Virus record (IMG/VR): IMGVR_UViG_3300043395_002348 | Location: 1 to 45,338 of that record | Strand: one strand, 5' to 3' | DNA: 45,338 nucleotides | DNA from: a virus | Part shown: piece by piece, positions 7,084 through 39,854 of the stretch | How the letters are laid out: each line of letters begins with the position of its first letter | Numbering within the stretch: the stretch's first letter is position 1 | Program-made: the position numbers and the translations under genes | Notes under the pieces: generated by a model | Database searches by the model: none | The model's input: only the letters and a program-made list of their open reading frames with translations | Told to the model about the DNA's origin: nothing

Positions 7084-7992
7084 ATGGATTATATTAGACT
7101 CTTAGACATTACAAACCAATACCCAAACTTACCAAGCTACGTTAGACAAAACGAAAAATTGGTAAACTTATTTGGTCTATACAAAGAAACGAATAAGTTA
7201 GAATTTAAAATGCCATCAATTGAATATATAAAGCCAGTTGATGATTTAAATTTAAGATTAATATTTGGATTTAGAAAAAATATAGAGGATAAAGATATAA
7301 AATATTTTACATCTCAGCAATTTTATTCTGATATGGAAGCTTCAAACATTGAGGGTAATCCGTATTTTTATTTACAATCAAATAAAGTTCAGTTTATTGT
7401 TTTAGTAAATTTAGAAAAATTTATTTCAACATTTGAAAAACTAAAAGAAATTGAAAATAAGCAGGGTATAGATGTTAAAATAAATAATTTTATAAGACAA
7501 GATAGTTCAATTAATTACGAAAGATTAATGAGATATTTTGATTGGGTTTTATCAAAACCATCTTTGGATGAAATAGATACTGATGGTGTAATACCTGCTG
7601 ACAAATTAGCAGAATGGGAGGTTGGTGATTATGACCCGATTATGATGAAATGGTCATTTAATAAAGATAAAGATGCTAAAGCAAAAGAAAATATACAACC
7701 ACCACCTGTAAGTAAATCTACGATTGAAAACTGGAGATTAGTAAGAAAAAGAAATTTAGATAGAAATGGAATGGGTATTTATCCTACTCCAAATGTAAAA
7801 AACTTCAATTCAGGTAAAAAGAATAAGGCTGATAAACGTACAGGTATTATAAACGAAGGTCAAACTTTTACTGGATATAAATACAAAACATTGGATAATG
7901 GATTTGTTATATGGGCACTACAAGGTACGAATGATACAGATCCAACCGGATATGCTTTTCAAGGAAAAGGTGATACTGTAGAAAAGGTTTAA
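7084..7992 (+). CDS. Hypothetical protein (302 aa)
   Basis: A 302-residue soluble protein starting MDYIRLLDITNQYPN. The N-terminal two thirds look mixed alpha/beta with many charged residues; the C-terminal third is Lys/Asn-rich (KKNKADKRTG) and ends in a beta-rich stretch (GQTFTGYKYKTLDNGFVIWALQG). No signal peptide, membrane helix or catalytic motif. A GTG start at 7069 overlapping the deaminase stop is possible and would add five residues. Its late-type motif and position after nucleotide genes give no firm function; not recognised. Confidence 0.7.
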   Translation: MDYIRLLDITNQYPNLPSYVRQNEKLVNLFGLYKETNKLEFKMPSIEYIKPVDDLNLRLIFGFRKNIEDKDIKYFTSQQFYSDMEASNIEGNPYFYLQSNKVQFIVLVNLEKFISTFEKLKEIENKQGIDVKINNFIRQDSSINYERLMRYFDWVLSKPSLDEIDTDGVIPADKLAEWEVGDYDPIMMKWSFNKDKDAKAKENIQPPPVSKSTIENWRLVRKRNLDRNGMGIYPTPNVKNFNSGKKNKADKRTGIINEGQTFTGYKYKTLDNGFVIWALQGTNDTDPTGYAFQGKGDTVEKV

Positions 7993-36145: not shown

Positions 36146-36802
36146 ATGAAAAAATACGTTAATTTTAAAAACATTGCTATCGTAGCATTGGTAATTTGGA
36201 TTTTATTACAATGGTTTAACCCAGGTGGGGTAATGCCAGGTGGAAGAACTATCAGAATTGATGGTAAAAAATATGAAGTTATAAAACACACAATTGATAC
36301 TGTAGAAGTTGAAAAGGTAAAAGTGGTAACTAAAAAGGGTAAAGATATTGTACATGAAGTAATTGATGTAGATACTTTAGTTCTTAAAGAAATGGTAAAT
36401 GTAGATAGCGCAGCTATTCTTAAAGATTACTTAGCTAAAATCGTTTACAAAGATACATTGATATTAGATGGTGGTTTGGGAACTATCGCTCTTACCGATA
36501 CTATCACAAAGAATAGAATTTTAGGTAGAACTTGGGATGCTAAAGTTAAAGAAAGAATTATCAAAGAAGAACTTATTGTTAAAGAGCCTGCAAAGAATCA
36601 AGTATATTATGGTTTGAACGCTGGATTTAACAAAGCAGATTATGTATCAGCAGTTGGAGCCGGTGTAATTCTTAAAACTAAGAAAGATAAAATTTATCAA
36701 TTAGGAATTGGTGTAAACAATAGAACTACCGATGGAACTAATGGTTCATTCTCTCCTTACGTTGGATTTGGAACTTATTGGAAGATTAAAGTTAAAAAAT
36801 AA
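36146..36802 (+). CDS. Membrane-anchored protein upstream of the tagged genes (218 aa)
   Basis: One membrane segment (about 8-24, NIAIVALVIWILLQWF) and then an extracytoplasmic part with charged strands (VEVEKVKVVTKKGKDIVHEV) and a C-terminal beta-rich region (YYGLNAGFNKADYVSAVGAG ... YVGFGTYWKIKVKK) that resembles a small barrel or stalk. It does not carry the tag of the following genes. It opens the operon and its stop overlaps the next start (TAATG). Confidence 0.65.
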   Translation: MKKYVNFKNIAIVALVIWILLQWFNPGGVMPGGRTIRIDGKKYEVIKHTIDTVEVEKVKVVTKKGKDIVHEVIDVDTLVLKEMVNVDSAAILKDYLAKIVYKDTLILDGGLGTIALTDTITKNRILGRTWDAKVKERIIKEELIVKEPAKNQVYYGLNAGFNKADYVSAVGAGVILKTKKDKIYQLGIGVNNRTTDGTNGSFSPYVGFGTYWKIKVKK

Positions 36803-37074
36803 TGATTAAGTTAAATAACCTTAATGAAGCATCTGAAATAGAGATGAACGAACTAAAACCAACTGAACAAAAGCAAGTTCAAGCTTTTGCTAAAATTGTT
36901 GGTGGAAAGATAGTAACAATTTGGAGTGGTATTCATGGAAAAATTGTAGATATAGAAGCGGATGGTAATTTTGGTAGTGGATATAGATGGGATGCTGATG
37001 TACTTAAAAAATTAATAGCACTTAAAATTCGTTGGGTAGAAGCTGATGGGGATAATCTTTCAATAGCATTTTAA
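36802..37074 (+). CDS. Tagged small protein 1: candidate internal head protein (90 aa)
   Basis: Begins MIKLNNLNEASEIE: a version of the shared N-terminal tag one residue shorter (L7-N8-E9). If the prohead protease cleaves after L-x-E, about 81 residues remain, a small alpha/beta domain (FAKIVGGKIVTIWSGIHGKI, then ALKIRWVEADGDNLSIAF). The pattern follows T4 internal proteins, which carry a ten-residue capsid-targeting sequence ending in Glu. No known fold or enzyme. Coupled by TAATG to the upstream gene; 1 nt separates it from the next. Confidence 0.65.
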   Translation: MIKLNNLNEASEIEMNELKPTEQKQVQAFAKIVGGKIVTIWSGIHGKIVDIEADGNFGSGYRWDADVLKKLIALKIRWVEADGDNLSIAF

Positions 37075-37075
37075 T

Positions 37076-37324
37076 ATGATAAAGTTAAAGCAATTATTAA
37101 CCGAAGGTAAATGGTCAAAGATTATGGCAGGTGTTCGTAAAGGTTCTCAATCAGGACCTTGGACAATTGTAATAATCCAAAACAAAAAAGTAATTCACCA
37201 AGAGCCTGTAAAGTATAGAGATGCTATTCCTGCATCTTACGAAGCTATGAAACGTAAGTTCAGAAATGCAAATTTGGGAATTGAAGATAATTCAGGTCAA
37301 ATTGTATATCAAGAAAAAATATAA
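37076..37324 (+). CDS. Tagged small protein 2: candidate internal head protein (82 aa)
   Basis: Begins MIKLKQLLTE|GKWSK, the full consensus tag with Glu at position 10, just as in T4 internal proteins (L8-T9-E10). The remaining 72 residues are basic with beta strands (GPWTIVIIQNKKVIHQEPV) and a helix (DAIPASYEAMKRKFRNA). A basic packaged protein could ride with DNA and be injected. Stop overlaps the next start (TAATG). Function unknown. Confidence 0.65.
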   Translation: MIKLKQLLTEGKWSKIMAGVRKGSQSGPWTIVIIQNKKVIHQEPVKYRDAIPASYEAMKRKFRNANLGIEDNSGQIVYQEKI

Positions 37325-37638
37325 TGATACTACTAAGAGATATAATGGCTGAAGACCTTCGTAAGTGGTTTGGTAAAGGTAAAACTGGTTCTACTACTGG
37401 TGGGGGTTGGGATAGATATAACTCTAAAGGTGAGAAGGTAGGTAAGTGTGGAGATAGTAAAGCAGGTGATGCATACGCAGCTTGTTTATCAAAGGAAAAG
37501 GCAGCTAAGTTAGGACCTGATGGTAGAGCTGCATTTGTAAAAAGAAAAAGAGCAGCACAATCTAAAGCAGGAGATGCTAAGAAAGGTGGTGAAAAATCAA
37601 AAGGACAAAAACCAACATTTGTAAAAACTGGAGCATAA
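37324..37638 (+). CDS. Tagged small protein 3: Gly/Lys-rich, WDRYNSKG-type (104 aa)
   Basis: Begins MILLRDIMAE|DLRK (M8-A9-E10). The body DLRKWFGKGKTGSTTGGGWD, RYNSKGEKVGKCGDS, AYAACLSKEKAAKLG belongs to a conserved small phage protein type with two Cys and a Lys/Gly-rich, probably disordered, end (KGGEKSKGQKPTFVK). Very basic, so DNA contact in the head is plausible. Overlaps both neighbours by 1 nt. Confidence 0.65.
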   Translation: MILLRDIMAEDLRKWFGKGKTGSTTGGGWDRYNSKGEKVGKCGDSKAGDAYAACLSKEKAAKLGPDGRAAFVKRKRAAQSKAGDAKKGGEKSKGQKPTFVKTGA

Positions 37639-38252
37639 TGATACGTTTATCTGACATATTTGTAAAAAATAAAGAAACTGGAAAAAAGTACGATGTTAAA
37701 AAAGTAAATCCAGAAAAGCATGAATTTGCTTGGGATTTTAGGGGTAGTAAAGAAAACCCAAATCCTTTTCAAAAAGAAAAACCAAAATCTAAATTAAAAG
37801 AAGAACAACCACATCAAAAAGAAATGATTGATGGTATTGTTGAAATGCTAGTTCAGGTTAAAGATATAGATAACCGCAAACAAATGGCATTGGATAGATT
37901 AAGAGATTTTAAAAAAGAAGGAATTGAAGTAAACGCTGATGAGTTTATGGAAAGATGCGGACTTGGTGAGATGAATGAGAAATGGAGTGCAAAATATAAA
38001 AAATCTATCAATTGTTCTAATCCAAAGGGATTTTCACAAAGAGCACATTGTCAAGGTAGAAAGAAGCATGAAGTTATTGAAGAAGCAATGCAATTATTCT
38101 TAGAAAAGAATTGTCCAACTGACCCAGCTAAATGGTCAGCATCTAAAGCAGCAGCAAAAAGAAAGTTTGATGTATATCCTTCAGCTTACGCAAACGGATG
38201 GGCTGCAAAAAATTACAAATCAAAAGGTGGGGGTTGGAAAACCTGTAAATAA
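37638..38252 (+). CDS. Tagged-type protein 4 with two Cys-rich phage motifs (204 aa)
   Basis: Begins MIRLSDIFVKNKETG: the tag has its first seven residues but K at position 10, so the cleavage glutamate is missing. The body has a helical middle (QKEMIDGIVEMLVQVKDI), then KWSAKYKKSINCSNPKGFSQ and RAHCQGRKK, and at the end KWSASKAAAKRKFDVYPSAY ANGWAAKNYK (written in two parts), resembling DUF5872-type virion-associated motifs. It may be packaged without cleavage or be structural. TAATG coupling on both sides. Confidence 0.65.
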   Translation: MIRLSDIFVKNKETGKKYDVKKVNPEKHEFAWDFRGSKENPNPFQKEKPKSKLKEEQPHQKEMIDGIVEMLVQVKDIDNRKQMALDRLRDFKKEGIEVNADEFMERCGLGEMNEKWSAKYKKSINCSNPKGFSQRAHCQGRKKHEVIEEAMQLFLEKNCPTDPAKWSASKAAAKRKFDVYPSAYANGWAAKNYKSKGGGWKTCK

Positions 38253-38485
38253 TGATAAGTTTAAAATCCTTACTTAAAGAAGAAAAAGAGTTCATCATTT
38301 GGGGAGTTCCTCCTGGCGAAAGAGATGAAGTTGTAGCATATACAAAAGCTAAGAGTATGCCTGAAGCTAAGAAAGTAATGGATATTCTCAAACAAAAGCA
38401 TGGTTTGACAAAATTGAGAGTTCAAGTTATAGACCTTTCACAAACATACGATTTAAAAAAAGCATTTAGTAGTACTGTAAGATGA
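38252..38485 (+). CDS. Tagged small protein 5: candidate internal head protein (77 aa)
   Basis: Begins MISLKSLLKE|EKEF, a perfect tag with L8-K9-E10. The remaining 67 residues look like a compact alpha/beta domain: FIIWGVPPGERDEVVAYTKA, then helix KSMPEAKKVMDILKQKHG, then LTKLRVQVIDL. It recalls a small ferredoxin-like fold. Function unknown. Overlaps the next gene by 4 nt. Confidence 0.65.
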   Translation: MISLKSLLKEEKEFIIWGVPPGERDEVVAYTKAKSMPEAKKVMDILKQKHGLTKLRVQVIDLSQTYDLKKAFSSTVR

Positions 38486-39051
38486 TAAGATTAACCAAAA
38501 TATTAAAAGAAGGTATTTTATCTGATGTACTTACATTTGCTTTAGTTAATGGAGCAATTTGGGCAATATCCCAAGTTATCAGGTCTTTTAGAAACAAATC
38601 AGAATACAAAAAATTTGAAAGTGAACCTCACATAAAATGGTTAGATAGACTGGGTGTTAATGAAAATTTTAATAAATTTGTTTATCATACAATTAAAAAT
38701 GACAAAAAATTAAAAGAGTTTGATTCAAAATTATCAAAGGCAACCAATGGTGGGGCAAAAACAAATATCCAAACTGCTAAATACAAATACGAAAAAGAAA
38801 TTGTAAAAAAATGGTTAGATAGTGATATTGCACAAAAAGAATTAGATAAAGTTTTTGAAGAAATATACCCTGATTTAACAAAAGATAGTGATATTCCTGG
38901 TAATGGTGTAAAATTTACTTGGACATTTCCTCAATGGAAAAGTATTATCACAAAAAATGCAACTAAAGAATGGGCAGATGTTCTCAACGATGGTACTACA
39001 AAAAAGTTTATAAATCAATTTGCTAAAAAACAAGGTTTGGAATTAATATGA
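38482..39051 (+). CDS. Tagged protein 6: candidate internal head protein (189 aa)
   Basis: Begins MIRLTKILKE|GILSD, perfect tag with L8-K9-E10. Directly behind the tag is a hydrophobic stretch (about 14-32, VLTFALVNGAIWAISQVI) that could insert in a membrane or a hydrophobic pocket, followed by a basic, mostly helical body (FRNKSEYKKFESEPHIKWLD ... AKKQGLELI). A packaged protein that can meet the host membrane after injection is one reading. No family recognised. ATGA overlap with the Ntn hydrolase gene. Confidence 0.65.
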   Translation: MIRLTKILKEGILSDVLTFALVNGAIWAISQVIRSFRNKSEYKKFESEPHIKWLDRLGVNENFNKFVYHTIKNDKKLKEFDSKLSKATNGGAKTNIQTAKYKYEKEIVKKWLDSDIAQKELDKVFEEIYPDLTKDSDIPGNGVKFTWTFPQWKSIITKNATKEWADVLNDGTTKKFINQFAKKQGLELI

Positions 39052-39854
39052 TAAACGAATGTATTATTGTATCAAAAGAAGTTGGAGATAAGTTTATCCT
39101 TGCTAAAAATAGGGATAGAGCTTACAAACCAAAATTAGAAATCGTACACGAACTAATTGATGGGGTGGAAGTTGCATATATACATGATATGATTACCGAT
39201 TGGAGTGAGGGATTAAATGAATTTGGTATTGGTATCGTAAACTCCGCATTGCTTGTTGGACATGATGAAGCTGAAAAGAAATTAGTAAAGAAAGCAGGTA
39301 AACCTTCTAAGGATGGTAAAAAGATTAGAACTGCACTTTCACAAAAAACATTAAAAGAAGCTATTAAAGCTGCACTTAAAACCGATGGTGGTATAAATGG
39401 ACATACATTTGTATCTTCACCTAAACATATGGTTAGTATAGAGAAAACCTCAAAACACAAACCAGATGTAAAACTACATAATATATTGCATCCAGTGGTT
39501 AGAACTAATCATGGACATTTGTTTACCGATGCTGGATATACTAATGGTGAAAAATACCTTTCTTCTAAAATGAGAAAAATATCTGCTGAAAAAACTATTG
39601 ATAAAGTAAAAGATTGGGAAGAAATTGCACAAGCTATGAGAAAGGAATACTTTCCAAAAGAATCTCAATTGAATATGAGAAGACAGGCTAAGGATATGTT
39701 TACATCTTCTCAAACTGTAATGAATCTTACTGATAGAATATTAGATGTAGAATACTTTTTCGATAAGGTAGAATCATTTGAAGGGGTTAATAATAAGCTT
39801 CCAAAAGATTACCAACCTAAGATAAAAATACAGGTTAGGAAACTTGAATCCTAA
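39048..39854 (+). CDS. Cys-Ntn hydrolase (C45/AAT-type) with Cys at position 5
   Basis: A 268-residue protein with the hallmarks of N-terminal-nucleophile Cys hydrolases: Cys5 in MINECIIVSK, KNRDR (about 19-23), then DWSEGLNEFGIGIVNSAL (about 51-68), RTNHGHLFTDAGYTNGE (about 152-168) and SSKMRKIS. These act on amide bonds (acyl-transferases, amidases, peptidases); the substrate is unknown. The nucleophile must be the first residue. Here MINE must be removed first, and I2-N3-E4 fits the L/I-x-E rule of T4 prohead protease. Ends the tagged operon. Confidence 0.72.
   Translation: MINECIIVSKEVGDKFILAKNRDRAYKPKLEIVHELIDGVEVAYIHDMITDWSEGLNEFGIGIVNSALLVGHDEAEKKLVKKAGKPSKDGKKIRTALSQKTLKEAIKAALKTDGGINGHTFVSSPKHMVSIEKTSKHKPDVKLHNILHPVVRTNHGHLFTDAGYTNGEKYLSSKMRKISAEKTIDKVKDWEEIAQAMRKEYFPKESQLNMRRQAKDMFTSSQTVMNLTDRILDVEYFFDKVESFEGVNNKLPKDYQPKIKIQVRKLES

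Follow-up and report, generated by a model that had tools for sequence, protein, structure and literature searches.

The virus record IMGVR_UViG_3300043395_002348, a stretch of 45,338 bases and 32% GC hereafter called the window, carries seven consecutive genes (36802-39854) of which the first six (36802-39051) open with the motif M-I-x-L-x-x-[LI]. We show here how far this N-terminal tag resembles the capsid-targeting sequence of the internal proteins of phage T4. The tag is very probably a cleavable targeting sequence of the T4 type, judging from comparative sequence evidence, and the operon is best read as a T4-type capsid-targeting system belonging to a large group of uncultured T4-like phages. 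It goes beyond the T4 scheme in three respects: the cargo is grouped in one operon, tagged genes and polyproteins exchange their bodies at the cut site, and one member is probably an N-terminal-nucleophile (NTN) hydrolase activated by protease. The sequence pattern, its conservation, the presence of a protease in relatives, the placement of junctions and the NTN fold were computed directly; targeting, cleavage, packaging and injection of the operon proteins are what we infer.

In the scheme that we propose, the operon would be a set of late genes that supply a T4-like phage with head cargo. The hydrophobic residues 4 and 7 of M-I-x-L-x-x-[LI]-[LIM]-x-E would dock each protein on the scaffold core during prohead assembly, a prohead protease of the gp21/S77 type would then cut behind [LIM]-x-E and set the small, mostly basic bodies free in the head, and the freed bodies would enter the next cell together with the DNA. 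A broader proposition, which we consider as likely to be right as wrong, is that T4-like phages of several bacterial phyla share head-cargo modules moving between tagged genes and polyproteins, with a prohead protease that splits the polyproteins and activates a packaged NTN zymogen. If this holds, an enzyme would be armed only inside the particle, by exposure of its N-terminal cysteine. If the targeting reading of the tag is right, the virion cargo of uncultured T4-like phages could be read from genome sequence, and late genes now labelled 'hypothetical' would in many cases become candidates for injected proteins. The signal, so far described chiefly in coliphage T4, would then extend to a large aquatic phage group and cover enzymes already seen, without explanation, in cyanophage virions. 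The reading also predicts where exactly mature N-termini lie, that phage cargo can be made as polyproteins, and that one enzyme is activated by protease.

The N-terminal tag and the bodies behind it

The seven open reading frames (ORFs) were confirmed, all on the plus strand. Neighbouring ORFs are spaced by -1 to -4 nt except at 37074/37076, where the gap is +1 nt. The initial annotation, which had described seven consecutive, overlapping genes beginning M-I, was therefore nearly exact. The tags are MIKLNNLNE in gene 1 (36802-37074, 90 residues; tag of nine residues at 36802-36828, body of 81), MIKLKQLLTE in gene 2 (37076-37324, 82 residues; tag at 37076-37105, body starting GKWSKIM), MILLRDIMAE in gene 3 (37324-37638, 104 residues; tag at 37324-37353, basic body starting DLRKWFGKGK), MIRLSDIFVK in gene 4 (37638-38252, 204 residues), MISLKSLLKE in gene 5 (38252-38485, 77 residues; tag at 38252-38281) and MIRLTKILKE in gene 6 (38482-39051, 189 residues; tag at 38482-38511). 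On re-inspection the M-I-x-L-x-x-[LI] motif was found in the same six genes as annotated, and the annotated count of four tags with Glu at position 10 and one at position 9 was confirmed: [LIM]-x-E occupies residues 8-10 in four tags, L-N-E residues 7-9 in gene 1, and gene 4 has Lys at position 10. Gene 7 (39048-39854, 268 residues) starts MINE-C and has no tag.

For T4, it has been established that the first 10 residues of IPIII suffice for packaging, that targeting is governed mainly by residues 4 and 7 and processing by residues 8 and 10, that an Asp at position 10 stops processing but not targeting, and that gp21 cuts after L/I-X-E (PMC9026906). The internal proteins of T-even phages have diverse bodies with a constant tag (PMC3012670). 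The window tag conserves exactly the positions 4, 7, 8 and 10 that are important in T4. Like IPI, IPII, IPIII and Alt (PMC9026906, PMC3012670), the window proteins have an N-terminal signal of about 10 residues with hydrophobic positions 4 and 7 and [LI]-x-E at 8-10, the signal precedes unrelated, mostly small and basic proteins, and the phage group has a gp21-family protease. The window differs from T4 in its single operon, in its consensus (MIxLxx[LI][LIM]xE, not MKTYQEFIAE), in bodies that occur in single genes or in polyproteins and are swapped at the cut site, and in having one zymogen-like member. For flavophages and cyanophages, an incomplete literature search found no paper describing targeting sequences.

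A general tag pattern (hydrophobic at 4 and 7, Glu at 9 or 10) was compared with 300 shuffles of residues 2-13 of each genome's own ORFs. Five of the 64 window ORFs match, against a shuffle mean of 0.5, and none of the 300 shuffles reached five; the relatives G001, G002, G015 and G016 also beat every shuffle. The T4 control gave six matches where 1.8 were expected, among them IPII, IPIII and the vertex protein gp24, which is annotated as cleaved by gp21, and the crAss001 control gave one match against 1.4 expected, hence no excess. Internal methionines of the same genome group match the pattern in 47 of 4058 cases (1.2%). Moreover, when ORFs are selected by MIxL alone, residue 10 is Glu in 65%, compared with 4.8% of other ORFs. 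Around 89 loci with gene 7 homologs, tagged ORFs make up 68 of 237 distinct ORFs upstream and 2 of 467 downstream, counts that share ancestry, and are thus not phylogenetically independent, and in which many of the 237 come from loci lacking the operon. A better measure is how many unrelated bodies follow the tag.

In the relatives, 32 unrelated first-domain families stand behind the tag. They were obtained by first-domain clustering, which replaced single-linkage clustering of whole bodies since the latter joined families through fusions. In the structural model of gene 1, the first block of 10 residues is a coil with a mean predicted local distance difference test (pLDDT) score of 51, while the other blocks score 76-92; the tag is thus not part of a shared fold. 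The statement that the bodies behind the tags are unrelated therefore gained support from the 32 families, and a shared fold as the source of the tag, which had been named as a way in which the idea could fail, was ruled out by these families together with the low-confidence coil at residues 1-10 of that one model. Separately, Microcystis phage Mel-JY01 (L047 10276-12718) carries three related tagged genes close together, MIKLKSLLQE, MIKLKSLLKE and MIKLMSLVTE, each followed by [IT]ISDRVWH[LV]T.

Predicted cut sites at module junctions and the prohead protease

Tag-free bodies were located inside other proteins, and the residues at the mapped body start were read. At 36 of 49 junctions [LIVM]-x-E lies within two residues of the body start, against a background of 8.1%, and most of the matching junctions have it at the exact position (exact background 1.7%). 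Six of the 13 unmatched junctions trace back to G005 19600, where a start codon in frame within a large protein had mimicked a tag. The bodies of five window genes (1, 2, 4, 5 and 6) belong to this set. That of gene 1 follows INE inside a 200-residue fusion (L122 2261; INE-ASEV), on which basis the cut in gene 1 is predicted after L-N-E. The gene 2 body is found behind ESIMTE (L122 2865; MTE-GVWSKIM) and behind VESVNE (L099 234; VNE-GNWSKIM), the gene 5 body behind ITLKSFLKE inside G002 51218-51763 (FLKE-EKEFIIWG), and the gene 6 body behind KLSEILKE inside G001 7192-7959 (ILKE-GILQD).

Gene 4 gives the junctions LKE-EQPHQ and MNE-KWSA and can be read as a polyprotein of three modules. In its tag the targeting positions 4 and 7 are conserved, but residue 10 is Lys. 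The loss of Glu should block removal of the tag and not targeting, and cutting would take place at two predicted internal sites on the plus strand: L-K-E at 37794-37802 (residues 53-55, before EQPHQKEM), which maps exactly to the end of the tag in L087 5497, and M-N-E at 37971-37979 (residues 112-114, before KWSAKYKK), which maps exactly to the end of the tag in L084 9122. Indeed, the body following LKE stands alone behind a full tag in two relatives (L087 and L092, MIKLSNLLKE-EQPHQ), and the body following MNE does so in L084 (MIKLTDIINE-KWSQ).

The same modules are found in more distant phages. The gene 3 body stands behind (V)MKE in cyanophages S-BM3 and Sf-CH8 ((V)MKE-DLRxWFGKGK), and the S-BM3 protein joins it to the FDVYPSAYANGWAAK module seen at the end of gene 4; methylophage Melnitz has another module of the operon pool behind MDE (MDE-AKSS). 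In Sf-CH8, a neighbouring protein of 103 residues starts MKSYKQFMSE, nearly the T4 signal MKTYQEFIAE. Thus the same bodies serve as single tagged proteins or as parts of polyproteins, and at the seams the predicted cut sites are as a rule retained. The initial annotation was silent on the internal cut sites of 37638-38252 and on this interchange, as it was on the [ILV]-x-E before the Cys of gene 7. The arrangement recalls the polyvalent proteins of phages and plasmids, multi-domain invasion proteins of which some, such as P1 DarA and DdrB, are cut and packaged in the head (PMC5512222). Their splitting has been proposed to occur through a built-in MPTase peptidase domain (PMC5512222), whereas the sites of the window proteins fit a prohead protease, and family searches of the window operon and of the scanned fusions found no peptidase family, MPTase-type domains included.

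A gp21-type protease (PF03420), which the initial annotation had proposed to look for, is present above cut-off in 12 of 29 related records and in all 11 of those longer than 54 kb. G001 and G002 encode it among the head genes, in a T4-like cluster that includes terminase, portal, scaffold and major capsid protein as well as some tagged genes. By eye, the G001 major capsid protein has LLDE-ATQ before its mature region, corresponding to FLTE-AEI of T4 gp23. In the relatives of the window, an NMNAT is among the head-cluster proteins that carry the tag.

Large ORFs of 782-1301 residues in head clusters (L029 6026-8374, equivalent to G001 45026-47374; L034 9267-11801; L085 5512-9417) contain the tag, an NMNAT domain and additional modules, separated by [LIVM]xE, and are probably cargo polyproteins. 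One such module is a DUF5661 domain in G001 and L085, and another has a KTDGQ motif that, by eye only, resembles a ligase active site. Furthermore, the 'prohead protease' of Chryseobacterium phage MA9V-1 (L188 3502-7545, 1347 residues) has a weak S77 domain at 37-148 (25.9 bits, cut-off 27) and 38 [LIVM]xE sites, many of them INE-S; it looks like a protease-scaffold polyprotein.

A predicted NTN hydrolase zymogen

By its AlphaFold2 model (pLDDT 76.7, predicted template modelling score 0.81), gene 7 looks like a cysteine NTN hydrolase. The top Foldseek match in the PDB is acyl-CoA:isopenicillin N acyltransferase (2x1c, E 9.7e-9, probability 1.00), followed by choloylglycine hydrolase, penicillin V acylase and NAAA among the other top matches (probability 1.00), and every one of the 35 fold matches with E <= 0.001 is to an NTN hydrolase or a related acylase. 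No Pfam family matched above cut-off, the best relevant one being AAT (E 0.15), and a PDB sequence search with the gene 7 profile gave no match; the fold search alone did. Gene 7 shares with these enzymes the fold and a Cys at the start of the first strand, and differs from them in a propeptide that ends in a site of the prohead protease type and in matching no Pfam family above cut-off.

Cysteine NTN hydrolases need a free N-terminal Cys. In gene 7, the putative propeptide M-I-N-E (39048-39059, plus strand) precedes the predicted nucleophile Cys5 (39060-39062), with I-N-E at P3-P1. All 89 gene 7 loci have Glu at P1 and Ile, Leu or Val at P3, despite 16 propeptide versions of 4-11 residues, and the predicted nucleophile is invariant among the homologs. 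The loci were found with two search patterns, of which one contained E-C and the other (DKFILAK) could find variants without Glu; the conservation of P1 Glu alone is therefore partly selected, and P3 was in neither pattern. Since the propeptide ends in [ILV]-x-E directly before the Cys, the prohead protease should expose the catalytic N-terminus, and gene 7 would be activated by this protease during head maturation.

It is possible, though we hold it to be clearly the less probable course, that gene 7 removes its own propeptide and that the Glu before the Cys serves catalysis and not protease recognition. Autoprocessing is common in the NTN hydrolase superfamily, and the Glu is invariant where the rest of the propeptide varies. 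Such a role would not account for a P3 that is always Ile, Leu or Val over 16 propeptides, as in a prohead protease site, nor for the same P3 and Glu pattern in the homolog of Chryseobacterium phage MA9V-2 (FINE-C), which is 47% identical.

Putative virion cargo, possible functions of the bodies and host

Tag geometry is also found on proteins detected in cyanophage virions. The mass-spectrometry list of S-CREM2 virions includes a SAM hydrolase, a kinase, a cytidylyltransferase, ORF13, ORF136 and a Cas9-like nuclease (PMC10665884), in a paper whose text does not mention targeting sequences. The first five of these start MKDFDSFLEE, VKRFDAFLTE, MKNFSSFLTE, MKDLHSFLTE and MQTFSMFFSE, respectively. 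In S-SCSM1, an NMNAT annotated as a virion protein (PMC9602691) starts MKSFLQFLKE. A protein of S-SM1 starting MKKFSAFLNE belongs to cluster T4-GC190, which experiments are reported to have identified as a virion structural protein in cyanophages (PMC3037559). These enzymes (NMNAT/cytidylyltransferase, SAM hydrolase, kinase) resemble the window proteins in the geometry at positions 4, 7, 8 and 10, and differ in their tags (MKxFxxFLxE) and in their scattered genes. Tag and detection are associated in S-CREM2 (5/6 versus 38/189, p=0.002) with a widened pattern that was defined after the detected proteins had been seen. Because significance is reached only with this widened pattern in S-CREM2, we regard the cyanophage proteins as supporting cases and not as proof. 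As a separate observation, the Cas9-like nuclease of S-CREM2 (L182 7704-10313) has a tag-like RFASFMAE-A at residues 18-25 and not at its N-terminus.

A number of observations weigh against the targeting-and-cleavage reading. With the pattern fixed earlier, S-CREM2 gives 3/6 (p=0.14); in the part of S-SCSM1 that was examined, the widened pattern in unaltered form gives 1/3 (p=0.37). The 133-kb relative G009 has only four tagged ORFs, which is not above its shuffles, and some gene 7 loci (e.g. L055-L062) have no tagged operon upstream. Position 10 is not Glu in gene 4, and gene 1 has its Glu at position 9. [LIVM]xE is a weak motif, expected by chance about once per 60 residues. Finally, the window itself has no PF03420 match, which is uninformative since the window is a fragment of 45 kb. 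Taken against these points, the claim of the initial annotation that the tag is a cleavable capsid-targeting sequence of the T4 type is strongly supported at the level of sequence by the tag geometry, by the gp21-family protease of the relatives and by the cut sites at junctions, as well as by the tag geometry on the cyanophage proteins detected by mass spectrometry.

What the bodies would do once released is more evenly balanced, and a function as effectors in the host, which the initial annotation pictured as takeover or anti-defence, has about an even chance. The principal competing explanation, which we hold to be less probable, accepts that the tag targets and is cleaved, and proposes that the bodies remain in the particle as DNA-condensing or head-structure proteins instead of being delivered. 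Of the seven mature proteins predicted, six are basic (pI 9.2-10.1), T4 internal proteins touch DNA via lysines (PMC3012670), Pfam and PHROG searches of the seven window proteins gave almost nothing above cut-off, and no known anti-defence family was matched in the operon by these searches, the PADLOC library not having been searched. The presence and absence of operon genes, however, turns over fast among loci, a pattern more in keeping with effectors than with architecture. The 32 body types likewise fit effectors better, and some bodies look like enzymes: the NTN hydrolase, the NMNAT, and a tagged protein of 469 residues in a relative (L001 1589-2998) that weakly matches DHH phosphoesterases (E 0.0004, under the Pfam cut-off). 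In the phage collection this last protein matches just two phages, both huge and uncultured, and among solved structures it has no relative by sequence.

It is improbable that the tag is instead a docking peptide used in some other late step of assembly (involving the tail, the baseplate or a chaperone) and ends in Glu by coincidence. The operon does adjoin tail and baseplate genes, the genes behind it have weak virion- and lysis-type PHROG matches, and the tag alone is a short amphipathic segment. Such a peptide would leave unexplained why [LIVM]xE is conserved where polyprotein modules meet, why [ILV]xE precedes the Cys of gene 7 and why the tag matches the T4 targeting sequence; nor would it account for tagged genes within the head cluster, as at G001 49773-50210, which lies between terminase and portal. 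Chance, or a start-codon or compositional effect in an AT-rich genome where M-I-K-L is common and Glu frequent, has a negligible probability despite the 32% GC and the MI starts of 9.5% of ORFs in relatives, being ruled out by the shuffles and the internal-methionine and crAss001 controls, and it fits neither the enrichment of Glu at position 10 nor a pattern kept across diverged loci.

A Bacteroidota host is likely for the phage with this operon, as judged solely by its cultured relatives, Flavobacterium phage immuto (host Flavobacterium sp. LMO8) and Chryseobacterium phages; the closest protease is from Microcystis phage Mel-JY01. Tagged genes of immuto include 24569 (MIKLIDLLTE), 103366 (MISIYNILKE) and 112261 (MRLLELLRE). 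Immediately upstream of the operon, 36146-36802 encodes a protein of 218 residues with no PHROG match that has an N-terminal membrane-like segment (QWFNPGG) and is kept in many loci. In immuto, two further N-terminal motifs, MKKQILSEQF[KR]RMQxLAGIITES and MEN(T)FDLKKFLVEN[KR]LTxNS, are repeated on different proteins (L050 25061-25456, L045 1265-1729, L050 1803-2318, L052 4806-5354 and L045 8222-8521), several of them near the head cluster, and may represent additional tags.

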